From a virus, in IMG/VR virus record IMGVR_UViG_3300010430_002753, positions 1-64,000 of that record: a stretch of 64,000 nucleotides of DNA; one strand, given 5' to 3'. Positions 12,733-56,372 of the stretch are shown here, in pieces (within the stretch, counting starts at the first letter, position 1; the number at the start of each line of letters is the position of its first letter). Made by a program: the position numbers and the translations under genes. The notes under the pieces were generated by a model, which was given only the letters and a program-made list of their open reading frames with translations, made no database searches and was not told the DNA's origin.

Positions 12733-12894
12733 TTATTTTAAATCAAACATATGAAAATTATCTTTACCATAGCAAATAATAATATCTTCATTATTTTTAT
12801 CGCTAAACAACCAAAAACATTTATTTCTTTTACTGTAAATATAGTTATTAAATAATAAATCTTTAATTATTTTCAATTTCATTTTAAAGTTCAT
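12733..12894 (-). CDS. Small unknown protein
   Basis: 53 residues when started at ATG 12894, the first start with a partial AAGAG site; a start at 12915 is also open. Basic and aromatic (FNNYIYSKRNKCFWLF). It overlaps the end of the RlaP-family gene by 11 bases. Nothing recognisable; a real but short gene is likely because it fills the gap precisely. Confidence 0.5.
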   Translation of the reverse strand: MNFKMKLKIIKDLLFNNYIYSKRNKCFWLFSDKNNEDIIICYGKDNFHMFDLK

Positions 12895-13927
12895 AATACT
12901 CTTCTTGAATTTCATATAACAACTCTTCTAATTTATTATAATTTGGTTTCTTTGGTAATACGTGATTACCACTATTTTGTATTTCTCTAAACTCTTTTTT
13001 TAATTTAGAAATATGTTCTTGTAATTCTTCAATAGGCATATTACCGGTTTTACATCTCATAATGATATCTTTTTGTTTTAACGGAAATTTAAGATCCCCT
13101 GTTTTTAACATTTCAATACCTTCAACTAGTAAACGAATTACATGACTTCCAAACTTATAATCATAACCTCTTTCAAATACTAATTGCTTTCTATAACCAG
13201 AAGCTTTACTAAATCTATTTTTAATATTATCTAATGCAGTTTTAATTTGGATATTAGCACCCATACTTAAATCACCAATAAAATAAATATCTTCAAATCT
13301 TTTATCTTCATGTTGTTTCTGACCAAATTTACCAATCTTTTCACTATCTAATTGTAATCTCAAAGATACTAATTTATCATTATGAAAACAATTTTTTGTT
13401 TCAATTTGATATTCAATAAAAGTAATAAATTTTTTAAATGCTTCATAATTGTTAGATTTGACATACATTTTCTTTTCTTGACTAATAGCATATCCAATAA
13501 ATCTTTCTACTAATCCTTCATGTAAAAATAAATTTCTATTATCTAATAATAGTTTTCCCCATTTATTACAATATATAATATTTTCAGGATTTACAAATAA
13601 CATTTCTATGATATTAGGATTATTTTCAGCAGCTAGTTTTACAAACTTTTTTAAACTATAAAATTTTCTATCTATGGCATCTTTACTATTTCTACCATTA
13701 TCTTTTTTGTCTTTAATAGATAAATCAATTTCATTTAAACTTTCATGTCTATAAAAAGGTGATAAAATTTGTCTAGTAGTTGGCAATACAAATTCAATTG
13801 GTTCTACAAATACTCCACCATAATCTACATCTGATTCAGGTGTTTCTAAACCGTATAAATTACTTCCTGTTTTTATTTCTAATATCTTATTTTTTTCTAC
13901 TATCTCTTTTCTTTCTTCAAAATTCAT
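12884..13927 (-). CDS. RlaP-family nucleotidyltransferase (PF10127-like)
   Basis: 347 residues. The Pol-beta-type nucleotidyltransferase signature is G21-S-N-L-Y-G-L with P30-E-S-D33-V-D35-Y-G-G, two metal-binding aspartates. The later HVIRLLVEGIEMLKTGDL is typical of this family. RlaP-type enzymes occur in bacterial and phage RNA-repair gene sets and are thought to add nucleotides to RNA ends. It is likely part of the tRNA/RNA maintenance theme of this genome, though physically 15-40 kb from the Thg1-like and CCA genes. RBS TGAGGTTATT. Confidence 0.78.
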   Translation of the reverse strand: MNFEERKEIVEKNKILEIKTGSNLYGLETPESDVDYGGVFVEPIEFVLPTTRQILSPFYRHESLNEIDLSIKDKKDNGRNSKDAIDRKFYSLKKFVKLAAENNPNIIEMLFVNPENIIYCNKWGKLLLDNRNLFLHEGLVERFIGYAISQEKKMYVKSNNYEAFKKFITFIEYQIETKNCFHNDKLVSLRLQLDSEKIGKFGQKQHEDKRFEDIYFIGDLSMGANIQIKTALDNIKNRFSKASGYRKQLVFERGYDYKFGSHVIRLLVEGIEMLKTGDLKFPLKQKDIIMRCKTGNMPIEELQEHISKLKKEFREIQNSGNHVLPKKPNYNKLEELLYEIQEEYYEL

Positions 13928-13952
13928 AATAACCTCATATATTTTCTGTTAA

Positions 13953-14474
13953 TTAATCATTTTTTATCATAATTGTTTTATTAGATCTTATTATATTATT
14001 TATTTTTATTTTTTTATTAATTTCTTTTTGAATATTAATATCATCTAATAATTCTGTTAATAATTCTGATAAATTTTTATTCATTTCTTTTTTATAAATT
14101 TCTTTAACTTTTGATTTCAAACAAAATATTCTATAAATAAAATTACTATTTATTATAATATTAAATATACTATTAAATTTTTCTTCATTATATAACATTT
14201 CTTTTCTTCTATATTCAATTCTATCTTTTATCTCTTGATGTAAGTCAGAAATAGTTTTTTCAAATTTTTTTGTTTTATTTTCAACATCTTTATTTATTAT
14301 TAATAATTTTTCTTCATAATTAGATTTAGTTTTAAAAAATCTTTTATTATGTAGTATTTCTAATTTAGTTTTTTCTTTATTATATTTTTCTTTAATTTTA
14401 TTTAATCCATCTTTTTTAAAATCTAATAATTCATTATATTCATCTAAAGATATTGTAACGGTTCTTTCTATCAT
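13953..14474 (-). CDS. Coiled-coil protein, unknown
   Basis: 173 residues, nearly all helical and lysine/glutamate-rich, with a long coiled coil over about 15-105. It begins ERTVTISLDEYNELLDFK, a start seen in many phage proteins of unknown role. It overlaps the 14471 gene by four bases. No catalytic motif. Confidence 0.65.
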   Translation of the reverse strand: MIERTVTISLDEYNELLDFKKDGLNKIKEKYNKEKTKLEILHNKRFFKTKSNYEEKLLIINKDVENKTKKFEKTISDLHQEIKDRIEYRRKEMLYNEEKFNSIFNIIINSNFIYRIFCLKSKVKEIYKKEMNKNLSELLTELLDDINIQKEINKKIKINNIIRSNKTIMIKND

Positions 14475-14662
14475 AACAACCTCTTATTTTTATTTGATCC
14501 CATATTGTATGCAATAAGTAATAAATCTGCAGTTTTATTTATTGTACCAATTTTATTGTAATTGTCCCATGCAATTTTATATATTTTTTTTAATGTGTGT
14601 AATGAAACATTTTGTTTGTGTTTTTCAGTAAACCTGTATAATTGCCAGTTATATTCATACAT
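14471..14662 (-). CDS. Small unknown protein
   Basis: 63 residues. It begins YEYNWQLYRFTEKHKQ and continues as a basic helical protein ending GSNKNKRLL. ATGA overlap with the coiled-coil gene downstream and an AAGGTTGTTGT site upstream. No family recognised. Confidence 0.58.
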   Translation of the reverse strand: MYEYNWQLYRFTEKHKQNVSLHTLKKIYKIAWDNYNKIGTINKTADLLLIAYNMGSNKNKRLL

Positions 14663-14673
14663 ACAACAACCTT

Positions 14674-17208: not shown

Positions 17209-17517
17209 TTAATCGTGTTTAATTTCTTTTACAATTTTCATTTTTTGAGCAAGCACCCATGTCCCACCTTGCGATTCTGGCCTGTCATAGTATTCATAAT
17301 CTTCTATTTCAACTTCAACCCATGTTCTATTCTTTTTACTTAAATGAGGTGCAATAGGTGATAACGTACAATGCCAACCTTTCCTAAATGCAAATCCTTT
17401 TGTTGGGTGGGCTTCTGCGTTAAGCCATTCACCAATTGGGATTCTACTTTTTTTATTTATAAATAATGGACTTAATCTTCCATCTTTCATTTTTCTAATT
17501 AATTTATACGCTTTCAT
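17209..17517 (-). CDS. Conserved phage protein of unknown function
   Basis: 102 residues. The sequence FRKGWHCTLSPIAPHL and the end SQGGTWVLAQKMKI form a pattern I have seen in uncharacterised proteins of many phages, with a hallmark GWHC and conserved Trp and Gly. It resembles small ADP-ribosyltransferase-like or nucleotide-binding folds only loosely, so no function is claimed. The ATG overlaps the stop of the phosphatase gene (ATGA type). Confidence 0.62.
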   Translation of the reverse strand: MKAYKLIRKMKDGRLSPLFINKKSRIPIGEWLNAEAHPTKGFAFRKGWHCTLSPIAPHLSKKNRTWVEVEIEDYEYYDRPESQGGTWVLAQKMKIVKEIKHD

Positions 17518-18191
17518 ATATAAAACTCCTTAAAATCATCTAATCTTAAACAAGCTAATTTTCCACCATAAGCTGCACCACAATCAATACCTATTTTTTG
17601 ATTATAATGTCGTATTTTCCATTCTTTAGTATAATTATAAGGTAAATTTACTACTGGAGTATGACCAAATATGTAGTATACGTTTTTAGGAGTATTACTA
17701 GTATTTGTGTCAGTGTGGAATTCTCTTCTAGCCCATATTTGAAAATCTCTATTTTGTTTTTCAAATGGTAATCCATCTTTATTTAATTGAAACCCTGCGT
17801 GAGATAAATAAAATATATTATTGTTTATTTCTATTTTTTTACTAAATTCAAGTGTATTCACAAAATATAATATTTTTACTTTTTCAGATTTATCATATGT
17901 TTCAAATTCTTCATATGTTTTATAACCACCTTGAGTAAACCATTGATGATTATTTAAATTTTTATTATCTAAAGAATAATATTCACACATCCAATCATCG
18001 TGATTACCCATTAACATTTTAATATTATATTGATTTTTCATTATATATTTTAATATTTTAATTGAATGTGGTCCTCTGTCTACAACATCTCCAAGAATAT
18101 ATAAACGATCTTCGTCATTAAAATTAATTAATTCTAACATTGCCATAAATTTATCATACTGACCATGTATATCAGACATTACGTAAATCAT
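17514..18191 (-). CDS. PPP-type Ser/Thr protein phosphatase or Ap4A hydrolase-like
   Basis: 225 residues. Metallophosphoesterase motifs in order: D7-I-H9-G, GDVVDRG (34-40), GNHD (62-65), a late GHTP and a final GIDCGAAYGG. This is the layout of phage lambda phosphatase and of Ap4A/PrpE relatives, two-metal enzymes of the cytoplasm. Substrate could be a phosphoprotein or a dinucleotide. The end overlaps the next gene by four bases, and the start is 2 bases after the 18193 stop. Confidence 0.83.
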   Translation of the reverse strand: MIYVMSDIHGQYDKFMAMLELINFNDEDRLYILGDVVDRGPHSIKILKYIMKNQYNIKMLMGNHDDWMCEYYSLDNKNLNNHQWFTQGGYKTYEEFETYDKSEKVKILYFVNTLEFSKKIEINNNIFYLSHAGFQLNKDGLPFEKQNRDFQIWARREFHTDTNTSNTPKNVYYIFGHTPVVNLPYNYTKEWKIRHYNQKIGIDCGAAYGGKLACLRLDDFKEFYI

Positions 18192-25365: not shown

Positions 25366-25893
25366 TTATTTGTTTAAAAAATAAATTGCTTCTGCGGCAA
25401 TAGTTCTAGTTAATCCAACGTAATTATCACACCTAAAAAAATTATTACGTTGATGATATAGCATATCACAATCATCATCTAATATAATATATTTATGAAA
25501 ATGCGATTCGTATTCATAATTTAATAATTTTTTATTATACTCAATCCAACATTGAATTTCACATCCTCTGGGTATAGTATATCCACTACCTGATTTAACT
25601 TCATTGCCAATAAATAAAGATGGTGTTTTATCAATTATGTTTTTTGGATATTTAAACCCTTTTTTAACTAAATATCCTGCTATTTCTTCTACAGATTTAC
25701 CTTTTCTCCAAGTAGAAGAAATAACTATTTTTGCTTCTGTTTTTTCTATTAAATAATTTAACCATTTTATATTTGAAGAACACAAATGGCATAAAGGATA
25801 TCCATCTCTTTCATAACGATCTTCTTCAGATTTTAATATAAAATGTATTTCATTATTTAATACTCCATCAATATCTAAAAAAATTATTTTCAA
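25366..25893 (-). CDS. HAD protein of the RNA-repair (HAD_SAK) type
   Basis: 175 residues from a TTG start (25893) preceded by AGGAGAG. HAD motif I is FLDIDGVLNN (D7 and D9), motif II SSTWR (59-63), then DKTP, PRGCEI (108-113) and ILDDDCD (137-143). This fits the HAD domain family found in 'Swiss army knife' RNA-repair proteins (PF18143-like), which may act as end-phosphatases. It belongs with the RNA-end enzymes elsewhere in the window. Substrate unproven. Confidence 0.72.
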   Translation of the reverse strand: MKIIFLDIDGVLNNEIHFILKSEEDRYERDGYPLCHLCSSNIKWLNYLIEKTEAKIVISSTWRKGKSVEEIAGYLVKKGFKYPKNIIDKTPSLFIGNEVKSGSGYTIPRGCEIQCWIEYNKKLLNYEYESHFHKYIILDDDCDMLYHQRNNFFRCDNYVGLTRTIAAEAIYFLNK

Positions 25894-27900: not shown

Positions 27901-28701
27901 TTATTCGTAATCTTTATTATTAACTAAATTATTAATAATTGTATGATCTTTTTGAAATATAACACCTTCTATAAATGTCCATTCATTATCTGATTTAATG
28001 CAAGTATTTCCATTCTTCCATTTATCTTCTAATTTTGCCCAATTATGACCTTTTTGAAAACACATTTCATGCATATCTTTTTGATTTTTACCATGTAATT
28101 CTTTATGCGAATATAACGATTGAGCTAACATTTGCATTGAATTTCTTATCCAGTCCTGCTGGCGCCAGACGAAATTATTACATACCTCTTCTCTAGGAAT
28201 ATTAAATGATCTACAATCAAATACTGCTAGTCTATTGTTTTCTATATATTTTATAATATCCTTATCAATATCAACTGATGGATATTCTCCAAAACTTAAT
28301 CCAAAATACTGCGTTCTGCTTTTTTCTTTAAAATATTCTAATAACATAAATTTATTAAACTCAGCAGAGGCTATACTTGGAGCAACACTACACATTTTTT
28401 GAACGTTATAATTAAACCAAGCATCTGTTGTTAATTTATCATAATCAGTTAATAGAATTGTAATCTCATCTGATTGAGTATAAGCTAATTTAGCACCTTG
28501 AATTTGTTCACATAATTTTTTAGTTGTATGTCTCATAGCTTCATTCATTAATTCCGAAAATGGTTTTTCGAAACTTTTAGTAAACGTGTGAAACGCCTTT
28601 CCGTCCAATCTAAGTATTACTGGAGTTCTTCTAGTTAAAAATGTTCTAGATCTAACTTCATAATTATTTTTCATTCTATCACCAAGTGATGTTTTATCCA
28701 T
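27901..28701 (-). CDS. Thg1-like 3'-5' RNA polymerase (tRNA-His guanylyltransferase family)
   Basis: 266 residues. Thg1 palm motifs are clear: RLDGKAFHTFTK with D33 and G34, and YTQSDEITILL with D78 and E79, the two-metal site. FVWRQQDWIRNSMQML is typical of bacterial/archaeal Thg1-like proteins. Thg1 adds G-1 to tRNA-His; Thg1-like relatives repair tRNA 5' ends using the complementary strand. The tRNA-His here already encodes G-1, so 5'-end repair is the better guess. Uses ATP/GTP and acts on tRNA in the cytoplasm. Joined to the 28704 gene by 2 bases. Confidence 0.85.
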   Translation of the reverse strand: MDKTSLGDRMKNNYEVRSRTFLTRRTPVILRLDGKAFHTFTKSFEKPFSELMNEAMRHTTKKLCEQIQGAKLAYTQSDEITILLTDYDKLTTDAWFNYNVQKMCSVAPSIASAEFNKFMLLEYFKEKSRTQYFGLSFGEYPSVDIDKDIIKYIENNRLAVFDCRSFNIPREEVCNNFVWRQQDWIRNSMQMLAQSLYSHKELHGKNQKDMHEMCFQKGHNWAKLEDKWKNGNTCIKSDNEWTFIEGVIFQKDHTIINNLVNNKDYE

Positions 28702-38751: not shown

Positions 38752-38827
38752 TGGAGACTGAGTAGGGAATTGAACCCTAAAATAACAATTTTGCAGACTG
38801 CTCCCTTGACCATTCGGGCACTCAGTC
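38752..38827 (-). tRNA. tRNA-Cys (GCA)
   Basis: Acceptor GACTGAG/CTCAGTC, anticodon loop CTGCAAA, U73 and an encoded CCA. Good D and T arms. Last tRNA of the operon, 12 bases from the terminator. Confidence 0.9.
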
Positions 38828-38859
38828 ATAATTATGTGTGTAATATTTATAAATAAAAA

Positions 38860-38936
38860 TGGGGTGAAGGAGGAGGCTTGAACTCCCATATGCTGGATCC
38901 ACAATCCAGTGCTTTACCAATTAAGCTACCTACACC
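38860..38936 (-). tRNA. tRNA-His (GTG)
   Basis: Acceptor GTGTAGG/CCTTCAC with one T-T mismatch at 4:69, anticodon loop TTGTGGA, C73 and CCA encoded. The extra 5' G opposite C73 is encoded, so G-1 does not need to be added by the Thg1-like enzyme. Confidence 0.88.
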
Positions 38937-38943
38937 ATAAAAG

Positions 38944-39030
38944 TACCTCTGACAGGGGTCGAACCTGTACGCTCCATTACAGAACCCTGGATTCTAAGTC
39001 CAGGATGACTACCAATTCCAACACAGAGGC
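38944..39030 (-). tRNA. tRNA-Leu (TAG)
   Basis: Class II tRNA: acceptor GCCTCTG/CAGAGGT, anticodon loop CTTAGAA, a long variable arm and A73. The next bases are CTT, so CCA is not encoded and must be added. Confidence 0.88.
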
Positions 39031-39091
39031 GTATATAAAAAATTTATTTTGTTTATGAATCATAACTTTCTTTTTGAAGCATTTTTACATC

Positions 39092-39331
39092 TTACTGCTT
39101 AAATAATATATCATCCATAATATCTAATATTTCTTGTTTGAATATTGTCCATACTTGTATATAAGGAATATAATATTTTTCATACCTTTGTTTAGAATAA
39201 TTTGCGGTATTTTCTTTGTAACTTTCTAAATGAATATCTATTAATTGGATTAAATGATTTAATTTACATATACTTAATTTTTTTAATTTTGATATTCTTT
39301 TAGGGTTTACACGTAATTTTATGATATCCAT
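39092..39331 (-). CDS. Small basic unknown protein
   Basis: 79 residues, helical and Lys/Tyr-rich (DIIKLRVNPKRISKLKK start, QRYEKYYIPYIQVW middle). It sits inside the tRNA operon. RBS AGGTATAATTT. No family recognised. Confidence 0.6.
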   Translation of the reverse strand: MDIIKLRVNPKRISKLKKLSICKLNHLIQLIDIHLESYKENTANYSKQRYEKYYIPYIQVWTIFKQEILDIMDDILFKQ

Positions 39332-39340
39332 AAATTATAC

Positions 39341-40147
39341 CTACTTATATAATTTTAAAAATTTAAAAAATTTTGGCCATTCTCTTCTAGGTTTCAATAC
39401 TAATATAACTTCTTTCTTATCGAATTGTAATTCAGTAATTACAAACCAATCATCGCCAAAAGTTTTTGCTTTTTCAAATTGTTCTTCAGTTACTTTACAA
39501 GTAACTTTTCTAAATGAATCAGAATACCACTCTTGCATAATAGGATCACTATATTCTGGCCAATGTTTATTAATGGCACATCCAGCATGAGTAGCACTAT
39601 TAATTGAATGTCCAACATCTACCCAATCTTTAATTAAAACATACATTTTTAAAGGCTGTACAGCATTTTTATTGTCGTCTGTTATTTTCATACAATGATT
39701 CCAAGCTTCTACTGTATATCTATTTCCTTCTAAATAATTATTATAATCTGTTTTAGCGAATGCAATACATGAGTTATCGTCATTAATATGAATAACGTAT
39801 CTTTTTTGACTTTTAATATATTCATTATTCCATACATGCATTAATTTAACATCTGTTTTAAATGTTTTATTATTTTTTAATTTCATATTATTTTCCAATA
39901 GTTCTTGAGATTTTTCATAATCATAACTAATATACCAATTTGGATAAAAACATGGTTCGTGTTTAGAATTAAAAATTTTAGTTACTGTTTCCCAATAACT
40001 TTCTTCTTGTTCTAACTTTTCATCATTATGCCATATCCTAAATATATCTTCAACTTCACAATATTCAACACCAATACATAGATCTGGATAAATATTTTTA
40101 ATTTCTTCTATACCATCATTAATACCGTTTATTAATTTATGATCCAT
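39341..40147 (-). CDS. Protein with PTH2-like C-terminal domain
   Basis: 268 residues. Residues about 167-268 resemble type 2 peptidyl-tRNA hydrolase: a strand KMYVLIKDW, SINSATHAGCAI in the place of the GK-x-x-AQ-x-x-HA region (H187), FRKVTCKVTEEQFEKAK, and final strands EVILVLKPR and FLKLYK. PTH2 frees tRNA from stalled peptidyl-tRNA. The first 165 residues have no known match and may bind partner RNA or protein. Its place in the tRNA operon supports an RNA role; assignment is moderate. Confidence 0.6.
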   Translation of the reverse strand: MDHKLINGINDGIEEIKNIYPDLCIGVEYCEVEDIFRIWHNDEKLEQEESYWETVTKIFNSKHEPCFYPNWYISYDYEKSQELLENNMKLKNNKTFKTDVKLMHVWNNEYIKSQKRYVIHINDDNSCIAFAKTDYNNYLEGNRYTVEAWNHCMKITDDNKNAVQPLKMYVLIKDWVDVGHSINSATHAGCAINKHWPEYSDPIMQEWYSDSFRKVTCKVTEEQFEKAKTFGDDWFVITELQFDKKEVILVLKPRREWPKFFKFLKLYK

Positions 40148-40156
40148 TATAATTCC

Positions 40157-40251
40157 TTATTCAACTTCTATTAATTCAAAATTAGCAAAATCATATATTT
40201 TATTATTTAACATAAAGAATTTAAAATTAAATTCATTAATATTATATTCAT
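40157..40251 (-). pseudogene. Very small gene, probably frameshifted
   Basis: An ATG with an AGAGGTTAAT site at 40249-40251 opens a 14-codon frame that stops early. In the adjacent frame a smooth coding-like stretch (EYNINEFNFKFF followed by MLNNKIYDFANFE and ending ELIEVE) continues to the stop at 40157. One base appears missing near the start. It lies behind the 40285-40313 promoter, just upstream of the PTH2-like gene, whose ribosome-binding site overlaps its stop. Confidence 0.42.
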
Positions 40252-40284
40252 ATTAACCTCTATTATAAATTTTTTATTATAAAC

Positions 40285-40313
40285 ATTATATTGTATAATT
40301 AAATAAATGTCAA
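40285..40313 (-). promoter_or_regulatory. Consensus sigma-70 promoter
   Basis: Minus strand TTGACA (40313-40308), a 17-bp spacer and TATAAT (40290-40285). An internal promoter within the tRNA operon for the PTH2-like gene region. Confidence 0.9.
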
Positions 40314-40321
40314 CTAATAAA

Positions 40322-40741
40322 TTATATTTTTTTATTTAATAATCCTTCATATACTTTTCTATAACATAACATATTAGGAATATATCTACTATTATTTCCA
40401 AAATATTCTGAATCATCACCATTAAAATAATTAGATATAGCTGCAGCAACACCAGAACTTCTAGAAATTCCAGCATCACAAGATATAATAAAATCTTTAT
40501 TTATATTACTTAAAATAAATTCTATAATACGATCAACATCATTATCAGAAATTGTATTATATTTATCTATTTTTTCTTCTATATCATAAAATCTTAAATA
40601 TATTATATCACATCTATTTTCATTTTTAAATTCAGTAAACATAGATGGATCTTGTATTGATATAATACAAACATCTTTATCTATTTGTTTATTAAATAAC
40701 TTATTCTGCAAATCTAATTTTGATAAAACTTTTATATTCAT
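40322..40741 (-). CDS. Dual-specificity/tyrosine phosphatase-like protein
   Basis: 139 residues. The P-loop CDAGISR (C88 to R94) with the following SSGVAAAI is the cysteine phosphatase signature C-x5-R. A conserved strand and a D (DIEEK, 53-57) in the right place could be the general acid. Small DSP-type enzymes dephosphorylate proteins or RNA 5' ends. Located between tRNAs. Substrate unknown. Confidence 0.73.
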   Translation of the reverse strand: MNIKVLSKLDLQNKLFNKQIDKDVCIISIQDPSMFTEFKNENRCDIIYLRFYDIEEKIDKYNTISDNDVDRIIEFILSNINKDFIISCDAGISRSSGVAAAISNYFNGDDSEYFGNNSRYIPNMLCYRKVYEGLLNKKI

Positions 40742-40767
40742 TAATTATACCTCCATAACTTAAAAAA

Positions 40768-40844
40768 TGGTGGGCCTTGTTGGACTCGAACCAACGACTT
40801 CCTGTTTATGAGACAGGATTTCTAACCAACTGAAATAAAGGCCC
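40768..40844 (-). tRNA. tRNA-Met or tRNA-Ile2 (CAT)
   Basis: Acceptor GGGCCTT/AAGGCCC, anticodon loop CTCATAA, A73, CCA encoded. G1-C72 pairs and no GGG/CCC anticodon stem, so not the initiator. C34 could be lysidine-modified to read AUA (Ile); sequence alone cannot decide. Confidence 0.88.
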
Positions 40845-40846
40845 GC

Positions 40847-40917
40847 TTCCCAGACAGGATTTGAACCTGCAACAATTGGATTAGAAATCCAATGCTCATC
40901 CACTTGAGCTTCTGGGA
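40847..40917 (-). tRNA. tRNA-Arg (TCT)
   Basis: Acceptor TCCCAGA/TCTGGGA, anticodon loop TTTCTAA, A73. Two bases (GC) separate it from the next tRNA, so CCA is not encoded. 71 nt. Confidence 0.87.
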
Positions 40918-41025
40918 TATAAAAATAAAAGAAGATAATTTAGTAGTCCAAAATATCTTCAAGAACACTTATCAATTTGAGCTTCATTTTATAGAGAGGC
41001 TTAATAAGTTTATTTTATAGTAAAA
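40918..41025 (-). other. Non-coding gap with hairpins in tRNA operon
   Basis: About 100 bases between tRNAs without a plausible gene. GAAGATA/TATCTTC (around 40930-40963) and CTTAT/AATAAG pairings are visible, and the ends (ATAAAAATAAA and TTTATTTTAT) could pair. Probably part of the transcribed tRNA precursor; no known RNA family recognised. Confidence 0.4.
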
Positions 41026-41113
41026 TGGCGGAGATTATAGGACTCGAACCTATATATCCTTTTCAGAACGCTAGATTAGCAATCTAGTGCAATACCAATT
41101 ATGCGAAATCTCC
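41026..41113 (-). tRNA. tRNA-Ser (GCT)
   Basis: Class II: acceptor GGAGATT/AATCTCC, anticodon loop TTGCTAA, long variable arm, G73, encoded CCA. 88 nt. Confidence 0.9.
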
Positions 41114-41119
41114 AAAAAT

Positions 41120-41443
41120 TTATTTATTTTTTATAAATATTCTTAAACATTCTTTTTTCCAATCAAATCCCCATTGTCGAATACCAATTATGTTAGATCT
41201 TAAGTCTTCAAGTATATTATTTATTTCATATTTTTCTGTTTTTTCTAGTTTGCTATTATTAATAATATTTTGAATTTTATTTATTGACGGACATTGCATT
41301 TGTGGAGATTCATCTATATTAAAATAATTATCTATATTAGGTTTTTTACCAATAATCTTATAAAAATTATCTCTTAATGTTTTATAATATATTATTGAAT
41401 TATATCTAAGTATTTTAACAAATAATCGTTTTAAATATTTCAT
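41120..41443 (-). CDS. Small unknown protein
   Basis: 107 residues from ATG 41443 behind GGAGATAT; the open frame reaches back into the tRNA-Ser gene, which is not coding. Basic, mixed alpha/beta, with aromatic start KYLKRLFVKILRYN. No family recognised. Lies in the tRNA operon. Confidence 0.6.
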   Translation of the reverse strand: MKYLKRLFVKILRYNSIIYYKTLRDNFYKIIGKKPNIDNYFNIDESPQMQCPSINKIQNIINNSKLEKTEKYEINNILEDLRSNIIGIRQWGFDWKKECLRIFIKNK

Positions 41444-41460
41444 ATATCTCCTATTAAAAA

Positions 41461-41546
41461 TGGCAGAGAAGGTGGGATTCGAACCCACGGAGCCGTCACT
41501 CACTGGTTTTCAAAACCAGCTCCTTAAACCACTCGGACACTTCTCT
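41461..41546 (-). tRNA. tRNA-Ser (TGA)
   Basis: Class II: acceptor AGAGAAG/CTTCTCT, anticodon loop TTTGAAA, long variable arm, G73, encoded CCA. Confidence 0.9.
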
Positions 41547-41561
41547 ATATTAAAAATTTGT

Positions 41562-41758
41562 TTTCTTTTAGATAATGATCTATCATAACAAATATAATTT
41601 AACATCTAATTCTACTAGTTTAAATTAGACTTTATATTTACAAGAATCTACACAACTCTCTTATCAAGATATTGGCTACGCCAGTTTTTGGTCTATTATA
41701 TTAATTACTCTAGAAATAAATTAATACGATATTTTTCAAGATCATTATCTAAAAGAAA
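41562..41758 (-). other. 197-nt structured region closed by a perfect 20-bp inverted repeat
   Basis: Arms 41562-41581 and 41739-41758 are exact reverse complements (20 bp). Inside are hairpins TCTAATT/AATTAGA, TGGC/GCCA and TTAATT/AATTAA. No gene fits. It lies 1 base beyond the CCA of tRNA-Ala, so it may be a processed non-coding RNA or an RNase III substrate. Confidence 0.6.
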
Positions 41759-41759
41759 T

Positions 41760-41835
41760 TGGTGGAGCTGGTCGGACTTGAACCGACGGCCTTCTGCTTG
41801 CAAAGCAGACACTCTTCCAACTGAGTTACAACCCC
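41760..41835 (-). tRNA. tRNA-Ala (TGC)
   Basis: Acceptor GGGGTTG/CAGCTCC with the G3:U70 identity pair, anticodon loop TTTGCAA, A73, encoded CCA. 76 nt. Confidence 0.92.
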
Positions 41836-41843
41836 ATTTTAAT

Positions 41844-41984
41844 TTAATCATTTAAATTTTGTTTTAAATATTTACGTAAAGATTTTCTACCTTTTTTCTT
41901 AAACCAACGTTTATTCTTTGTATGACATTCATCTGGATGCGCTGGTCTTTTTCTTGAATATAATTTCTTTGTCGATTTCTTCAT
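41844..41984 (-). CDS. Very basic small protein
   Basis: 46 residues, about 40% Lys and Arg: KKSTKKLYSRKRPAHPDEC, then HTKNKRWFKKKGRKSLRKY. RBS AAGGTTATATT. Likely binds RNA or DNA, as small basic phage proteins and ribosomal-protein-like peptides do, but no family is recognised. Found between tRNAs. Confidence 0.68.
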   Translation of the reverse strand: MKKSTKKLYSRKRPAHPDECHTKNKRWFKKKGRKSLRKYLKQNLND

Positions 41985-41996
41985 AATATAACCTTC

Positions 41997-42185
41997 CTAT
42001 AAATCAAATTGTTTATAATATTTTTCGTCAGACATACTTATTAAATATCTAATTTCTTTATTTACTTGTTGCAATTTAATAATATATTCTGATTCTTTCT
42101 CCCAAAATGAATTTGAAAGGTGTTTTGTTTTAGAATCTTTTACAGACTGTTTAAGTGATTCTAACAATTCTTTTGTTCTTTTCAT
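41997..42185 (-). CDS. Small unknown protein
   Basis: 62 residues, helical, charged (KRTKELLESLKQSVKDS), with a conserved-looking FWEKESEYIIKL. Preceded by AAGGAAATTATTA. No family recognised. Confidence 0.58.
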   Translation of the reverse strand: MKRTKELLESLKQSVKDSKTKHLSNSFWEKESEYIIKLQQVNKEIRYLISMSDEKYYKQFDL

Positions 42186-42196
42186 TAATAATTTCC

Positions 42197-42733
42197 TTAT
42201 TTTTTATAACTAATTCTAAAGCTATAACATATTATGGAAGAATAATCAAAAAGACTATTTACGGCAGATCTGTTTAACATTTCATTAATCAATTTATGCC
42301 TTGATATTTTTTCTTTATCATATAAATGACTCCATAATAAACATACATTATTTATATGTATTAGACCCTCAACTCTTTCATCGTTGGAAGGGATTTTATC
42401 TAGTTCATATATTAGATTATTATTTTTGAAATACTTATTCAATAATACATTTACAACTACATGATACTCTTGATATCCACCACCTACTGTTATGTTAAGA
42501 AACATGCATTTATCTTTATTAGCTTTTAGTTGATTTATCATATCTAAAGTATCTAACACTTCATAAAGAACATATTGGTTACTTTCAATAATAGATAAAA
42601 ACTCTTTTTCTATATCTGAGATTTCAGCACTTAGTGTTGATTTATACTCTATTTCTTTTTGTATTCTCTGGTTTTCCATTATTGTAGATATATTAAAATT
42701 TCTGTTGAGTAAAAGTAATGGCATTGCAAACAT
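42197..42733 (-). CDS. Unknown protein
   Basis: 178 residues from ATG 42733 with an AATAGGAGCTTG site. Alpha-rich, acidic and basic patches, with FLSIIESNQYVLYEVLDTL and a C-terminal cysteine (SSIICYSF). No recognised domain. It lies between tRNA-Gly and the small 41997 gene. Confidence 0.6.
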   Translation of the reverse strand: MFAMPLLLLNRNFNISTIMENQRIQKEIEYKSTLSAEISDIEKEFLSIIESNQYVLYEVLDTLDMINQLKANKDKCMFLNITVGGGYQEYHVVVNVLLNKYFKNNNLIYELDKIPSNDERVEGLIHINNVCLLWSHLYDKEKISRHKLINEMLNRSAVNSLFDYSSIICYSFRISYKK

Positions 42734-42771
42734 TTCAAGCTCCTATTTTGGACAAATTGTCAATATGAAAA

Positions 42772-42847
42772 TGGAGCGAACAGAGGGACTCAAACCCTCA
42801 ACCAGTAGATTGGAAATCTACCGTTCTATCAATTGAACTATGCTCGC
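42772..42847 (-). tRNA. tRNA-Gly (TCC)
   Basis: Acceptor GCGAGCA/TGTTCGC (one G-U), anticodon loop TTTCCAA, U73, encoded CCA. 76 nt. Confidence 0.9.
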
Positions 42848-42861
42848 ATAAAATTTAAGAG

Positions 42862-42933
42862 TAGAAAGAATAAGACTTGAACTTATAATATTGGTTCTTC
42901 AAACCAAGGTGTTACCAATTACACTATCTCTCC
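42862..42933 (-). tRNA. tRNA-Phe (GAA)
   Basis: Acceptor GGAGAGA/TCTTTCT (two G-U pairs), anticodon loop TTGAAGA, A73, followed by CTC: CCA not encoded. 72 nt, compact. Confidence 0.82.
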
Positions 42934-42945
42934 AAATGTTTATTA

Positions 42946-43251
42946 TTATAAATAATCTCTTAAATCTATTCCACTACATAAATTATAATAATGATAAATT
43001 TGTTCACCTACGGATTTATAAAGTCTATAATCTTGTTCTTGTGAATGATCAGTTAATTCTAATGTTCTATTGTTATGAGCTTTATTATCAAATATTTTAG
43101 CAAATTCTTTTAAAGTATCATTATTTAATTCAATATTTTGATTATTATTAATAACTTCAATTGCTTTTTTAATACCTTCAATAATTCCCTTTTGTCTATA
43201 CTCTTCATATTTATCAAGATACTCGCATCTTTGACTAAATGTAACGTCCAT
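42946..43251 (-). CDS. Unknown protein
   Basis: 101 residues. Helical, beginning DVTFSQRCEYLDKYEEYRQ, with an IEVINNNQNIELN middle and an aromatic end YHYYNLCSGIDLRDYL. RBS GGAGGTTTT. Located between tRNA-Phe and tRNA-Tyr. No family recognised. Confidence 0.58.
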   Translation of the reverse strand: MDVTFSQRCEYLDKYEEYRQKGIIEGIKKAIEVINNNQNIELNNDTLKEFAKIFDNKAHNNRTLELTDHSQEQDYRLYKSVGEQIYHYYNLCSGIDLRDYL

Positions 43252-43259
43252 AAAACCTC

Positions 43260-43420
43260 CATTAGTTAAAAAATGTCTCCAACATTTGGACTGTTTACCA
43301 CTCTTATGGTTATCTATACGCAGAGTATATAGAAGAGTTTGTTCTTATAAGATTAATCAAATTTAAGGAATTTAAACCTATTGCTTGATTAAACAGAGTA
43401 TCAATATTGATATTTTAAAT
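43260..43420 (-). other. Non-coding gap with hairpins
   Basis: About 160 bases with no plausible gene. Pairings: AATGT/ACATT, TATAC/GTATA, CTCTT/AAGAG and ATCAA/TTGAT. It lies between tRNA-Tyr and the 42946 gene, so is part of the tRNA transcript. May be a degenerate tRNA or a small RNA; not recognised. Confidence 0.35.
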
Positions 43421-43422
43421 TT

Positions 43423-43508
43423 TGGTGGCACCACTAGGAATCGAACCTAGAAACCTCTCGGTTACGGATTTACAATCCGCTGAGTTCACCATACTACTCA
43501 ATGATGCC
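43423..43508 (-). tRNA. tRNA-Tyr (GTA)
   Basis: Class II: acceptor GGCATCA/TGGTGCC, anticodon loop TTGTAAA, A73, encoded CCA. 86 nt as expected for bacterial tRNA-Tyr. Confidence 0.9.
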
Positions 43509-43515
43509 GTTAAAA

Positions 43516-43605
43516 TGGTGGGAAGTTGTGGAATCTAACCACAATACCTAAATAGGAGCGGGTGCACATTATCGCTTGAGATAACAATATACTCAATACC
43601 TTCCC
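43516..43605 (-). tRNA. Atypical class II tRNA-like gene, anticodon unclear
   Basis: 90 nt. Acceptor GGGAAGG/ACTTCCC (7:66 G-A mismatch), D stem TTGAG/CTCAA, variable arm CCTA/TAGG, T stem TGTGG/CCACA with an unusual loop TTAGATT, A73 and an encoded CCA. No well-formed anticodon stem can be drawn; between D and variable arms lies GCGATAATGTGCACCCGC. Degenerate or specialised tRNA; identity not assigned. Confidence 0.55.
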
Positions 43606-43610
43606 AAAAA

Positions 43611-43689
43611 TGGCCAGGCGTATGGGATTTGAACCCATGATCTCTACCGTGACAGGGTAGCGTCATAAACCAAACTAGACTAACGCCCG
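43611..43689 (-). tRNA. tRNA-Asp (GTC)
   Basis: Acceptor CGGGCGT/ACGCCTG, anticodon loop CTGTCAC, G73, encoded CCA. C1-G72 is unusual for Asp but pairs. Confidence 0.86.
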
Positions 43690-43721
43690 ATTAAAATCAT
43701 TTAATAAAAAATTAATAAAAA

Positions 43722-43800
43722 TGGTTGGGTAGCTCAGATTTGAACTGAGGATTTGTTGGTCCCAAACCAACCGTCATAGACCTAACTAGACCACTACCCA
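43722..43800 (-). tRNA. tRNA-Pro (TGG)
   Basis: Acceptor TGGGTAG/CTACCCA, anticodon loop TTTGGGA, A73, encoded CCA. 79 nt. Confidence 0.9.
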
Positions 43801-43819
43801 ATAAAAATTTAATATAAAG

Positions 43820-43892
43820 CAGACCATAAAGGACTTGAACCCTTATCTCAGGATTTGGAATCCCACATTCTAGCCAATTGAACTAATGATCT
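43820..43892 (-). tRNA. tRNA-Trp (CCA)
   Basis: Acceptor AGATCAT/ATGGTCT, anticodon loop TTCCAAA, G73, followed by CTT: CCA not encoded. Confidence 0.86.
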
Positions 43893-43899
43893 ATAAAAA

Positions 43900-43984
43900 T
43901 GGTGATCCCAGTTGGACTCGAACCAACGCTGTCAAAGACTCCTGCTTAAAAGGCAGGTGCGTTACCAACTACGCGTATAGGATC
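43900..43984 (-). tRNA. tRNA with UUU anticodon and a class II-like variable arm
   Basis: 85 nt. Acceptor GATCCTA/TGGGATC, D stem of 3 bp, anticodon stem CCTGC/GCAGG with loop CTTTTAA (anticodon TTT, Lys), variable arm GTC/GAC with TTT loop, A73, encoded CCA. Lys tRNAs normally have a 5-base variable loop, so the body resembles Leu/Ser tRNAs. Charged amino acid uncertain. Confidence 0.75.
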
Positions 43985-43986
43985 AT

Positions 43987-44030
43987 TTATTTAAATTAAT
44001 TTATAAATTAAAATAAATTAATTTAAATAA
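43987..44030 (-). repeat. Perfect 18-bp inverted repeat
   Basis: TTATTTAAATTAATTTAT (43987-44004) pairs exactly with 44013-44030, 8-base loop. A near copy occurs at 44945-44988. It separates the large structured region from the UUU tRNA; possible processing hairpin. Confidence 0.7.
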
Positions 44031-44510
44031 AGATCTCAGGTTTAAGGATTTTCGACCCAGAGATCTGAGTATCTCCATGCTATTAGATTGATCAATCTGA
44101 TAAGTTCTTATAGTGTGTTTTACAGCAGAACTTATTAATGTTCTTAAATTTGCAATGCTATTTCATTAATAGAGTTTGTTACGTTTCTATTAATAGGCAT
44201 ATATTTTCTATTGCTAATTCCTGAAACTGTTCACACAATAACCTGACCAATAGAATCAATGTTTGCGTCAATCCAACTCAAAGTAACAATACTGAGTTAG
44301 TTATCTCATTGCCTCGCCTTTCCGAGTTAAAAATTGTAACTGGCACGAAAGAATGCTTTAATCTATATTAAGCTATCAATTAAATTATTTGAATAAACAA
44401 ACTTTTCAATTTTGTGGGATTAGATAATCACCCATATCTTTCTTCGTGAGAGTTATTTCTTTCGAGTCAGCCAACTAGAACTAGTCTAGGATGAGCTTCG
44501 ATACTTTTTA
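44031..44510 (-). ncRNA. Candidate large structured RNA (ROOL/GOLLD-like context)
   Basis: About 480 nt without a gene and visibly richer in G+C than its surroundings, inside the tRNA operon. Many long hairpins: AGATCTC/GAGATCT (44031-44037, 44060-44066), ATAAGTTCT/AGAACTTAT (44100-44108, 44127-44135), ATTAATAGA/TCTATTAAT (44165-44173, 44186-44194), AACTCA/TGAGTT (44275-44280, 44293-44298), and an AGATTGATCAATCT palindrome at 44085-44098. Phage ROOL and GOLLD RNAs are also large and lie next to tRNAs; membership here is inference from position and size only. Confidence 0.5.
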
Positions 44511-44518
44511 AATAAAAA

Positions 44519-44597
44519 TGGAATCGCAGATGGGAATCGAACCCACAAACTTTACCGTGAAAGGGTAATGACTCTAACCTAATTCGTCTACTGCGAC
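44519..44597 (-). tRNA. tRNA-Glu (TTC)
   Basis: Acceptor GTCGCAG/CTGCGAT (1:72 G-U), anticodon loop CTTTCAC, U73, encoded CCA. 79 nt. Confidence 0.88.
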
Positions 44598-44600
44598 ATA

Positions 44601-44681
44601 AAAATATTTCAATATTAATATCTAATAAAACATTTATAGTTGTATTAGCATTTATAATTATCTTCCATATTGAAATATTTT
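44601..44681 (-). repeat. 15-bp inverted repeat between tRNAs
   Basis: AAAATATTTCAATAT (44601-44615) pairs exactly with 44667-44681, enclosing 51 bases, between tRNA-Met and tRNA-Glu. Possible RNase III-type processing site or small structured RNA. Confidence 0.6.
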
Positions 44682-44685
44682 AAAA

Positions 44686-44760
44686 TGGTAGCGGAGATGG
44701 AATTCGAATCCATATATCACGGGATATGAACCCGTTGAGTTGCCAGTACTCTACTCCGCT
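44686..44760 (-). tRNA. tRNA-Met (CAT), probable initiator type
   Basis: Anticodon stem ACGGG/CCCGT with the three G:C pairs of initiator tRNA, anticodon loop TTCATAT, acceptor AGCGGAG/CTCCGCT, A73, encoded CCA. The 1:72 pair is A-U (weak), whereas E. coli initiators are mismatched. Initiator identity is likely but not certain. Confidence 0.8.
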
Positions 44761-44766
44761 ATAAAA

Positions 44767-44842
44767 TGGCTAACCAGGTGGGACTTGGACCCACATACTT
44801 TCGATTAACAGTCGAACGCTAAACCAATTTAGCTACTGGTCA
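44767..44842 (-). tRNA. tRNA-Asn (GTT)
   Basis: Acceptor TGACCAG/CTGGTTA, anticodon loop CTGTTAA, G73, encoded CCA. The T-loop reads TCCAAGT, with C in place of the usual U55. Confidence 0.87.
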
Positions 44843-44848
44843 ATAAAA

Positions 44849-44934
44849 TGGTATTCCCAATAGGACTTGAACCTATACACCATAAAGATACAAGATCTTA
44901 AATCTTGTGTGCCTACCAATTACACCATGGGAAC
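44849..44934 (-). tRNA. tRNA-Leu (TAA)
   Basis: Class II: acceptor GTTCCCA/TGGGAAT (1:72 G-U), anticodon loop TTTAAGA, long variable arm, A73, encoded CCA. 86 nt. Confidence 0.9.
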
Positions 44935-44944
44935 ATAAAAATAT

Positions 44945-44988
44945 TTATTTAAATTAATCTACAAATTAAAATAAATTAATTTGAATAA
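44945..44988 (-). repeat. Near copy of the 43987 inverted repeat
   Basis: TTATTTAAATTAAT (44945-44958) pairs with ATTAATTTGAATAA (44975-44988), one G-U. Same sequence type and spacing as 43987-44030. Between tRNA-Thr and tRNA-Leu. Confidence 0.65.
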
Positions 44989-44990
44989 AA

Positions 44991-45067
44991 TGGAGCCAAA
45001 TCTCGGACTCAAACCGAGGACCCGATGCTTACAAGGCAACTGCTCTAATCAACTGAGCTAATTTGGC
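44991..45067 (-). tRNA. tRNA-Thr (TGT)
   Basis: Acceptor GCCAAAT/ATTTGGC, anticodon loop CTTGTAA, U73, encoded CCA. One T-T mismatch in the anticodon stem (28:42). Confidence 0.87.
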
Positions 45068-45082
45068 ATTAAATATATTATT

Positions 45083-45160
45083 TGCGGTAGGTAGGATTCG
45101 AACCTACGATACTTTCATTTGTATGAATGTGTTTTCCTTTTACACTATCTATAGTTCCGC
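45083..45160 (-). pseudogene. Decayed tRNA-like gene
   Basis: A perfect T arm (GTAGG-TTCGAAT-CCTAC) and D arm (GTGT/ACAC) remain. The 5' acceptor reads GCGG-AACTA-TAG against CTACCGC: removing the five inserted bases restores a perfect 7-bp stem. The anticodon arm TTCAT-ACAA-ATGAA has a 4-base loop, so no proper anticodon. The TAC in this stretch could be the remnant of a tRNA-Val. CCA is not encoded. Confidence 0.6.
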
Positions 45161-45171
45161 AAATAAAAAAG

Positions 45172-45242
45172 TTAGTCTGTGTAGAATCGAACTACAACTA
45201 TTAGGACCAAAACCTAATGCACTACCATTATGCAACAGACCA
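45172..45242 (-). tRNA. tRNA-Gln (TTG)
   Basis: Acceptor TGGTCTG/CAGACTA, anticodon loop TTTTGGT, A73, then CTT: CCA not encoded. First tRNA of the operon. 71 nt. Confidence 0.88.
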
Positions 45243-45747: not shown

Positions 45748-45818
45748 AAGATCTAATTTTTAATTTCTTAATCATTATAATTTGATTAAAGATTCTGTCA
45801 ACTAAAAAATTATTTTTT
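45748..45818 (-). repeat. 71-bp direct repeat, copy 2
   Basis: Second copy of the 45396-45466 segment, 352 bases away, with two differences. It includes the end of the upstream repeat gene's flank. Confidence 0.85.
45774..45801 (-). promoter_or_regulatory. Consensus sigma-70 promoter
   Basis: Minus strand TTGACA (45801-45796), a 16-bp spacer and TATAAT (45779-45774). Drives the 46-residue gene. Confidence 0.88.
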
Positions 45819-46172: not shown

Positions 46173-46199
46173 AAATTAAACCTTATTGAAGTTAATATT

Positions 46200-47081: not shown

Positions 47082-48710
<1,629 letters not shown>

Positions 48711-49871: not shown

Positions 49872-50357
49872 TTAAACCTTATTTAATAATCTTAAATTTC
49901 TTTGAATATTAACAGTTTTGATATCATTTTTATCTATTATTTTATCTTTATATTTATAAAATTCATAAGCTATATTTTTTTCATTATATACATTTTCATA
50001 ATCTTCGTAATCAATTATTTCTATACATACAGTATCTATAGAATTAATTATTTCATTATTTTCATTTAATTTTATTATAATATTATTGTAAGAATAAAAA
50101 TCATCTTCAGGTATATTTTCCTTAACCATAGAATTTTCAATACATATTGTATATTCATCAAATTCAATATGTATATTATTATTTTTATATTTTATAGTTC
50201 CAGTAAAATAATCACTATAATCCTCACAACTTAAAGAAAATCTATCTAAATAAGGAAGTTGTAATAATAATTGTAAACCTTTTTCTCCAATAAAATACTC
50301 TAAAATTTTATTTAAATCATTTATAAATTTTTCTTTAAATAATAATTCTTTCAACAT
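49872..50357 (-). CDS. Tail-only protein with RNLRLLNKV end
   Basis: 161 residues. The body carries no HRxDGPA repeat. It is acidic and aromatic, with strands such as YFTGTIKYKNNNIHIEFD. It ends in IQRNLRLLNKV. The stop region AAGGTTTAA feeds the gene at 49869. Supports the tail as a separate module. Confidence 0.75.
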   Translation of the reverse strand: MLKELLFKEKFINDLNKILEYFIGEKGLQLLLQLPYLDRFSLSCEDYSDYFTGTIKYKNNNIHIEFDEYTICIENSMVKENIPEDDFYSYNNIIIKLNENNEIINSIDTVCIEIIDYEDYENVYNEKNIAYEFYKYKDKIIDKNDIKTVNIQRNLRLLNKV

Positions 50358-54231: not shown

Positions 54232-54243
54232 CTAAAAAATTAA

Positions 54244-54585: not shown

Positions 54586-54617
54586 AATAACCTCCAAGTT
54601 ATTTTATTTATAAATAC

Positions 54618-54646
54618 AATGTAAATAACATATAAAAATCTGTCAA
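54618..54646 (-). promoter_or_regulatory. Sigma-70-like promoter
   Basis: Minus strand TTGACA (54646-54641), a 17-bp spacer and TACATT (54623-54618). Abuts the repeat gene at 54655. Confidence 0.72.
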
Positions 54647-54654
54647 CTAAAAAA

Positions 54655-54969
54655 TTATTTTTTATTTAATAACTTTAAGTTTCTTATAATATTTGCTTCT
54701 TTTTTCCAATCGTCAATATTATTAAAACGTATACCATTTATATAATACCATCCACCATATATTTCTCCAGATTCATAATATCTAATCTCAGCTGGTCCAT
54801 CTAATCTGTGTAATTTATTATTTATATAATATGTTTCAGTTCTTATTTCTCCAGATTCATTATACCAAATAGATGCTGGACCGTCAATTCTATGTTTTTT
54901 ACCATTTTTATAAAATTCTAGTTTTTTAACAGTTTCACCATTTTTATAATATTCAATTATTTCTTCCAC
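54655..54969 (-). CDS. HRxDGPA-repeat protein with RNLKLLNKK tail (GTG start)
   Basis: 104 residues from GTG 54969. Two repeats (HRIDGPASIWYNESGEI and HRLDGPAEIRYYESGEI), then IRFNNIDDWKKE and the tail IIRNLKLLNKK. The usual N-terminal ENGCYK module is missing. The GTG lies 3 bases after the CCA-enzyme stop, whose last codons AAGGTTTAA act as ribosome-binding site. Confidence 0.82.
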   Translation of the reverse strand: MEEIIEYYKNGETVKKLEFYKNGKKHRIDGPASIWYNESGEIRTETYYINNKLHRLDGPAEIRYYESGEIYGGWYYINGIRFNNIDDWKKEANIIRNLKLLNKK

Positions 54970-54971
54970 AA

Positions 54972-56372
54972 TTAAACCTTATTTAAAAGTTTTAATAATT
55001 CTTCTTTAGATATATTAGGATTTTCCATAAAAATATCTTCAGCTTTTCTCATATACTCACCAACTTTAATTCCTGGTTTAATATTAAATGTATTAATAAT
55101 ATCTTTTCCAGAAATAGGCATTGATACTGGTTCATGTTTTTCTTTTAGTTCAGCAATTCTTTTTGCTATATTCGGAACTTGATAAGGTAAACAATGTTCA
55201 GGTGCATGAGAAATATTATCTGCGTGAATAACTTCTAATAATTCTGTTAATAGATTACCTGATAATTTAATTAACTTTCTTATTGATTTATCTTTAATGT
55301 TTAAAGTTTCATTTCCCCATTGTTTAGTATGCATATGATTTTTGACAATAAAAGAAACACTATCAACTATTTCATTCTCATACTTTAATCTTTTTAAAAT
55401 ATCAATAACCATAGTTTCACTAAGAGTATTATGATCTATAAAACTATAATCATTTTTATCAGAATTCCATACTCTAGTTTTTAATTTACCAATATCATGT
55501 AATAACGCAGATAGTCTAACAACTAATTTATTTTCATTTTCTAGTATTGGTTTTTTAACAACGGCTTGTAATACGTCAAATAAATGATTAAATAAATCTG
55601 CAGAATGATATTCGTTTTGTTTAAAATCTATAGTTTCAATTAATTCTGGAATAATATAATTAATTAATCCAGTTTTTACTAAATAATATAATCCATTTAA
55701 ACAATTATCAGATAACATTATTTTTGTAAATTCACTATTAATTCTCTCTTTTGATAAAATTTCTGTAGATTTATAATTTCTAATTATTGAATCGTATACA
55801 TCTTTAGTTAATTTAAATCCTCTTGTAGAAAATCTAATAGCTCTTAACATTCTTAAAGGATCTTCTTTAAAAATACTATCAGGATCTGATGTTGTATTTA
55901 AAACATTATTACCTAAATCATTAATACCATTTCCAGTAAAATCTTCTAATTTATTTAAAGATATATTATACATTAAAGAATTAATAGTAAAATCTCTTCT
56001 TACTGCATCTTGCTCTATTGTTCCAAATTTAACTAATGGTTTTCTACTACCTTCTTCATACGCTTCTTGCCTACTCATCACAGATTCAAAATCTAAATCA
56101 CTATTAGGTAATCTAAAATTAGCAGTTCCAAATCTTCCAAAGATTACTGGATTGCTATCTTTTTTATATACTCCTAATTTCCTTGTTAAATATTCTGCTA
56201 ATGCAACACCACCCATTGGTAAATTTACAACAATATCAATATCTTTAATTTCTTTCTTTTTTAACAAAATATCTCTTACCGCGCCACCTACTATATATAC
56301 CTTATTCTCAAATTGAGTATCTATAATATGCTTATTGATACTTTCAGATATTTTAAATAATCTTTCTAACAT
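54972..56372 (-). CDS. cca: CCA-adding tRNA nucleotidyltransferase with HD domain
   Basis: 466 residues. Class II nucleotidyltransferase motifs: VGGAVRD (28-34), D44-I-D46, RRDFTIN (125-131), EDPLRMLRAIRF (170-181), and an HD domain with ALLHDIGKLKTR (H292, D293). It adds or repairs CCA at tRNA 3' ends from CTP and ATP. At least five tRNAs of this genome lack an encoded CCA, so it has clear phage substrates. It ends SKEELLKLLNKV, a match to the family tail that also provides the ribosome-binding site for the next gene. Behind the promoter at 56398-56426. Confidence 0.9.
   Translation of the reverse strand: MLERLFKISESINKHIIDTQFENKVYIVGGAVRDILLKKKEIKDIDIVVNLPMGGVALAEYLTRKLGVYKKDSNPVIFGRFGTANFRLPNSDLDFESVMSRQEAYEEGSRKPLVKFGTIEQDAVRRDFTINSLMYNISLNKLEDFTGNGINDLGNNVLNTTSDPDSIFKEDPLRMLRAIRFSTRGFKLTKDVYDSIIRNYKSTEILSKERINSEFTKIMLSDNCLNGLYYLVKTGLINYIIPELIETIDFKQNEYHSADLFNHLFDVLQAVVKKPILENENKLVVRLSALLHDIGKLKTRVWNSDKNDYSFIDHNTLSETMVIDILKRLKYENEIVDSVSFIVKNHMHTKQWGNETLNIKDKSIRKLIKLSGNLLTELLEVIHADNISHAPEHCLPYQVPNIAKRIAELKEKHEPVSMPISGKDIINTFNIKPGIKVGEYMRKAEDIFMENPNISKEELLKLLNKV

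Follow-up and report, generated by a model that had tools for sequence, protein, structure and literature searches.

During infection, the T4 enzymes Pnkp and Rnl1 heal tRNAs that have been cut by anticodon nuclease. In jumbo phages, tRNA arrays, ligases, the Swiss-army-knife HAD phosphatase, RlaP, a CCA enzyme, Thg1 and PTH2 have been described as an RNA repair repertoire directed against tRNA-cutting immunity (Iyer et al. 2021, PMC7824862). Pectobacterium phage CBB likewise combines Thg1 with RNA ligases and a peptidyl-tRNA hydrolase (PMC5259590), and CCA-adding enzymes are listed in a survey of huge phages (PMC7162821). Here, a window of 64,000 nt from the virus record IMGVR_UViG_3300010430_002753 is examined, which encodes members or likely relatives of five of these families (Thg1, RlaP, HAD_SAK_2, CCA enzyme and PTH2) together with 21 tRNA genes. 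This set is neither unusual nor new, but a further instance of the described jumbo-phage repair kit. It probably serves a large tailed phage for tRNA maintenance and the repair of RNA ends, in the manner described for jumbo phages. What is new lies in sequence-based tests of function, which suggest that Thg1 is not required for G-1 addition, reveal no excess of mismatches at positions 1:72, and point to a maturation role for the CCA enzyme.

The families and their proposed roles are the same as in the published repertoire (PMC7824862). However, that account stresses ATP-grasp and RtcB ligases, none of which was found in the present 81-kb record, and the PTH2-like protein is divergent. Xanthomonas phage XacN1 (PMC5852040) shares Thg1, RlaP, HAD_SAK_2, the CCA enzyme, PTH2 and an extensive set of tRNAs, but belongs to another phage lineage, possesses several RNA ligases and has CCA encoded in 27/27 sampled tRNAs. 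The healing logic of T4 is also the same, although neither a kinase nor a ligase was found in the present record, which carries nucleotide-restoring enzymes instead.

The record and its scope

The full record (G000) is linear and comprises 81,271 bases; G+C content of the window is 23.9%. The record, probably a fragment of a larger genome, is itself shorter than the jumbo threshold (>200 kb). It could derive from a huge phage and cover little of that genome, because its nearest CCA enzyme and ribonucleotide reductase relatives sit in a 735-kb phage. The same phage is apparently also present in a second record (G001/L023), from about base 32,184 to the shared right end, an offset inferred from matching CCA positions. 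Families were searched using Pfam with curated cut-offs and PHROGs, and tRNAs using ARAGORN and Rfam RF00005.

Five enzyme families

The following genes form the set.

27901..28701, minus strand: Thg1-like 3'-5' RNA polymerase of the Thg1-like protein (TLP) type, 266 aa (PF04446, phrog_4717, BtTLP 4KGK)
54972..56372, minus strand: predicted CCA-adding tRNA nucleotidyltransferase with HD domain, 466 aa (PF01743, PF12627, PF01966, phrog_2244)
12884..13927, minus strand: RlaP-family (RNA-ligase-associated Pol beta) nucleotidyltransferase, 347 aa (PF10127, phrog_388)
25366..25893, minus strand: HAD 'Swiss-army-knife' phosphatase, HAD_SAK_2, 175 aa (PF18143, phrog_1818)
39341..40147, minus strand: divergent PTH2-like C-terminal domain (about residues 165-268), after 160 N-terminal residues with no assigned domain (PF01981 below cut-off; profile of relatives)

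All five open reading frames (ORFs) are open on the minus strand; the plus strand is interrupted by stops. Four of the five assignments made in the original prediction were confirmed by profile searches: Thg1, RlaP, HAD_SAK_2 and the CCA enzyme all exceed their Pfam cut-offs, with catalytic motifs intact. Chance is excluded for these four by their Pfam E-values: no higher than 2e-24 in the case of Thg1, HAD_SAK_2 and the CCA enzyme, and 6e-19 in that of RlaP.

The Thg1-like protein scores 97.4 bits against PF04446 (cut-off 29.2) and matches phrog_4717 (tRNA-His guanylyltransferase) with an E-value of 5.6e-78. Its nearest solved structure is the TLP of Bacillus thuringiensis (BtTLP, 4KGK; E 3.3e-51), whose metal-binding carboxylates are D30, D75 and E76 (PMC3701042). 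All three have counterparts in the phage protein (D33, D78 and E79), which are invariant across 21 phage Thg1 homologues. The protein is therefore of the TLP rather than the eukaryotic Thg1 type, and differs from BtTLP in being phage-encoded and known here from sequence.

RlaP reaches 69.1 bits against PF10127 (cut-off 23) and 1.1e-64 against phrog_388 (nucleotidyltransferase), and keeps the nucleotidyltransferase motif GS..SDVD. For HAD_SAK_2, the corresponding values are 86.9 bits against PF18143 (cut-off 27.5) and 6.3e-33 against phrog_1818, with the motifs DID, SSTWR and LDDD kept. The CCA enzyme combines the nucleotidyltransferase head (PF01743, PolyA_pol; 87.3 bits, cut-off 23) with PolyA_pol_RNAbd (PF12627) and HD (PF01966) domains, and matches phrog_2244 (tRNA nucleotidyltransferase; 1.8e-57). 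It keeps the motifs GGxxRD, DID and EDxxR, shares 41.5% identity with a protein from the huge phage LR756501 (735 kb), and is predicted to add CCA rather than poly(A).

The peptidyl-tRNA hydrolase label is the weakest of the five assignments. The homology to PTH2 that had been proposed holds via relatives, but the protein itself stays below the PF01981 cut-off of 23 bits, with 16.1 bits at full length (E=0.013) and 17.9 for the domain alone. Within its C-terminal domain, identity is 51% to the relative L024 and 37% to a protein from a Variovorax phage, which itself clears the cut-off with 23.9 bits. When four relatives are combined into a profile, which is boosted by one strong member (L018), Pth2 structures rank first, with values from 4.4e-9 to 0.0033 (1rlk 4.4e-9, 1rzw 5.6e-8). 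Because these intermediates link it to PTH2, the product is probably a divergent PTH2 homologue, of doubtful activity. Archaeal Pth2 has conserved Lys/Asp/Thr residues in its active site; the lysines of the GKGK motif align with non-lysine residues here, and the key residues appear not all to be kept. An AlphaFold model of the protein was unusable (pLDDT 38).

The phage tRNAs

The predicted count of 21 tRNAs was borne out, with ARAGORN and Rfam in full agreement; all lie on the minus strand. The array has no recognisable tRNA-Val or tRNA-Ile-GAU. The array and its informative members are as follows.

38752..45242, minus strand: array of 21 tRNA genes interspersed with small ORFs (ARAGORN, Rfam RF00005)
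38860..38936, minus strand: tRNA-His(GTG), with G-1 encoded (base 38936) and C73 (sequence read and parsed)
38943..39030, minus strand: tRNA-Leu(TAG), without encoded CCA (sequence parsed)
40845..40918, minus strand: tRNA-Arg(TCT), with an A1.A72 mismatch and without CCA, abutting tRNA-Met at 40768-40844
42861-42933, minus strand: tRNA-Phe, without encoded CCA (sequence parsed)
43819-43892, minus strand: tRNA-Trp, without encoded CCA (sequence parsed)
45171-45242, minus strand: tRNA-Gln, without encoded CCA (sequence parsed)

Two features of this anatomy bear on enzyme function. First, since both G-1 and C73 are encoded in the tRNA-His gene, guanylylation of the phage tRNA-His is not needed; a strict tRNA-His guanylyltransferase would call for a tRNA-His needing post-transcriptional G-1, and here G-1 stands at 38936. 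Second, CCA is encoded in 16/21 tRNAs and absent from the other five (Leu-TAG, Arg, Phe, Trp and Gln), which gives the CCA enzyme ordinary substrates for maturation. The junction between tRNA-Arg and tRNA-Met leaves no space for an encoded CCA, and the A1.A72 pair of tRNA-Arg(TCT) is the sole 1:72 mismatch among the 21.

The array has further peculiarities. Bacterial initiator tRNAs have a C1.A72 mismatch; a tRNA with a CAT anticodon at 44686-44760 has three initiator-like G-C pairs in the anticodon stem, but A1-U72. Two degenerate tRNA-like stretches occur at 45091-45147 and about 43515-43605, the former rejected as an extra tRNA at 25 bits (Rfam cut-off 29). Two intervals between tRNA genes (44060-44510 and 43260-43420), several hundred bases long, are non-coding, have no Rfam match and could be unrecognised RNAs. 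A small protein encoded within the array at 40322-40741 carries a CX5R (CDAGISRS) phosphatase-like motif and belongs to phrog_5614, a family without assigned function.

Comparison with other Thg1 phages

Relatives of the Thg1-like protein were found in 127 phage records, the best being 53% identical. Pfam and Rfam models were run against 19 whole records of Thg1 phages. RlaP was present in 12, the CCA enzyme in 9 and HAD_SAK_2 in 8; PF09414 ligases occurred in 10 and RtcB in 4, with at least one ligase in 13. All five families, together with RNA ligases, are encoded by XacN1 and the 634-kb huge phage LR745206, and all but PTH2 by CcrPW and Lak-A2.

Some Thg1 phages have few or no tRNA genes. 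ARAGORN detected none in the whole genomes of two complete Thg1 phages, PMBT8 (Staphylococcus) and P018-4 (Vibrio), and 2L372D has only tRNA-Ile and tRNA-Pro. In phages without tRNA genes, the substrates of Thg1 must therefore be host RNA. Where tRNA-His is encoded, G-1 is included in the gene in the window, L010, XacN1, RAS14, Kaldavass, Fnu1, CBB and LR745206, but not in Lak-A2, CcrPW or Weasels2. Mismatches at 1:72 affect 7 of about 249 tRNAs in Thg1 phages (window included), compared with 3/49 in a huge phage lacking Thg1. Together, the encoded G-1, the tRNA-free Thg1 phages and the lack of a mismatch excess make G-1 addition or 5'-end editing unlikely as a general role. Repair of truncated ends would be the best candidate role, and bacterial and archaeal TLPs are known to favour 5'-truncated tRNAs over G-1 addition (PMC6471195; PMC3701042).

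A repair repertoire and its alternatives

The claim that enzymes for both tRNA ends are present is supported by the families and their motifs. In an end-repair repertoire, the Thg1-like protein would restore lost 5' nucleotides with the acceptor strand as template, an activity that bacterial TLPs show in vitro, while the CCA enzyme would complete the five CCA-less phage tRNAs and restore trimmed CCA ends on tRNAs of the phage or the host. RlaP could add nucleotides to broken RNA ends, and HAD_SAK could strip phosphates from them, ahead of ligation by a host ligase or one from the missing part of the genome. The PTH2-like protein may free peptidyl-tRNA or merely bind tRNA. The net effect would be to sustain translation while host toxins or defence nucleases damage tRNA. 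Counter-defence against host tRNA nucleases is what the literature generally infers for kits of this type, and is plausible here by analogy.

Several observations weigh against this interpretation. The five genes are dispersed over 43 kb of the record, with no operon; the co-occurrence counts in Thg1 phages are uncorrected for genome size; the CCA-less tRNAs supply the CCA enzyme with a non-repair job; neither a PF09414 nor an RtcB ligase was found across the 81,271-base record or in the second record; and the overlapping Thg1-RlaP gene pair discussed below is known from a single rumen phage lineage.

The enzymes might instead serve the maturation of phage tRNAs. The CCA enzyme fits this well, given that 5/21 tRNAs here lack CCA and that Lak-A2 (0/25 sampled tRNAs) and LR745206 (0/39) encode no CCA but have the enzyme. 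Yet XacN1 (27/27) and CcrPW (25/25) keep the enzyme although none of their sampled tRNAs lacks an encoded CCA. Thg1 fits poorly, as G-1 is already encoded in tRNA-His, two complete Thg1 phages are tRNA-free and others lack tRNA-His, and RlaP and HAD_SAK are left unexplained. Maturation rather than repair thus appears unlikely as an account of the whole set.

Large phages might also gather tRNA genes and nucleotide-handling enzymes independently, in which case the five proteins would not form one pathway. The 43-kb spread agrees with this, genome size alone could produce the co-occurrence, and PMBT8 has Thg1 without any of the other enzymes. Gene neighbourhoods in relatives argue otherwise. In the rumen-type virus contigs L004, L005 and L011/L012, the final part of Thg1 and the RlaP ORF overlap, and in L013-L017 RlaP lies downstream of Thg1, within 600 bases; CCA and RlaP genes adjoin across the ends of another record (G017). 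In addition, the distribution of RlaP mirrors that of RNA ligases in the published survey (PMC7824862). Independent acquisition is accordingly judged improbable.

The compared RlaP proteins of the rumen-type contigs are 63-98% identical, and the Thg1-RlaP pair therefore represents one lineage; the assignment to the rumen was read from sample numbers and does not come from a tool. The Kaldavass and CBB records have the two genes on one strand, with RlaP at a distance of about 3-3.5 kb from Thg1. No conserved small partner gene upstream of Thg1 was common to all lineages compared. Separately, in three Thg1 phages the PTH2-like gene is close to the HAD_SAK_2 gene, at a distance of about 0.3 to 3 kb.

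45735-46501: Shewanella phage 1/4
158427-160814: RAS14
170728-174452: XacN1

The overlapping pair is compatible with a more specific arrangement, in which RlaP and Thg1 would form a two-sided gap-filling module that extends the 3' and 5' sides of broken tRNA halves before ligation. Besides the mature 5' end, Thg1 would then act at internal breaks, such as nicks in the anticodon or a stem. This proposal is speculative and seems rather doubtful.

TLPs edit tRNA 5' ends in some protist mitochondria, but although the A1.A72 mismatch of tRNA-Arg(TCT) would suit an enzyme that swaps mismatched 5' nucleotides of phage tRNAs, 1:72 mismatches are rare and not enriched in Thg1 phages, and such editing was rejected as unsupported and is very improbable.

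As leads, the Thg1-RlaP gene pair and the Thg1 phages that lack tRNA genes are of greatest use, and PMBT8 and P018-4 offer clean systems for asking whether damaged host tRNAs are the natural substrate of Thg1-like proteins in vivo. The present phage contributes useful tRNA anatomy, namely an encoded G-1 and five CCA-less tRNAs.

The RNA ligase question

It had been noted that no RNA ligase was visible in the window. Searches for PF09414 and RtcB bear this out for the whole record, but for a probable fragment only: the PF09414 cut-off was passed by 11/23 searched records, and the genome may hold a ligase gene beyond the recovered sequence. Since both families are also missing from some apparently complete Thg1 phages, an absence here would not be exceptional.

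Two candidates were rejected. A hidden ligase was discounted because KxDG-like motifs occur only in proteins without other ligase signs. The product of 17514-18191 was considered as a Pnkp-like phosphatase, its phosphatase part being matched by one PHROG profile named RNA ligase. Among solved structures, ApaH and further phosphatases of the serine/threonine type are closest to it, no kinase P-loop gene adjoins it, and it is treated as an ordinary phosphatase.

Other features of the window

About 24 small minus-strand ORFs, distributed over 1021-58914, end in a common tail of about 12 residues, NIxRNLKLLNK[K/V/E]. Examples lie at 5293-5634, 5637-5888, 27612-27896, 49872-50357, 54655-54969 and 58396-58914. 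Most bear MORN-like 'HRLDGPAxIWYYxSGEI...YYINGK' repeats, while several have no recognisable repeat and only the tail in common. The tail looks constrained as protein, because the variation falls at synonymous sites. A scan of viral contigs for it returned the same phage only. Some of these ORFs stand beside Thg1 and the CCA enzyme, but a functional link was rejected, as the family is spread over the whole window; the adjacency is probably due to chance.

The window also encodes a 724-aa protein at 22875-25049, which matches phrog_2426 (E 4e-148) and has a weak VWA domain, and a group I chaperonin (Cpn60) at 47082-48704 (PF00118, 264 bits).

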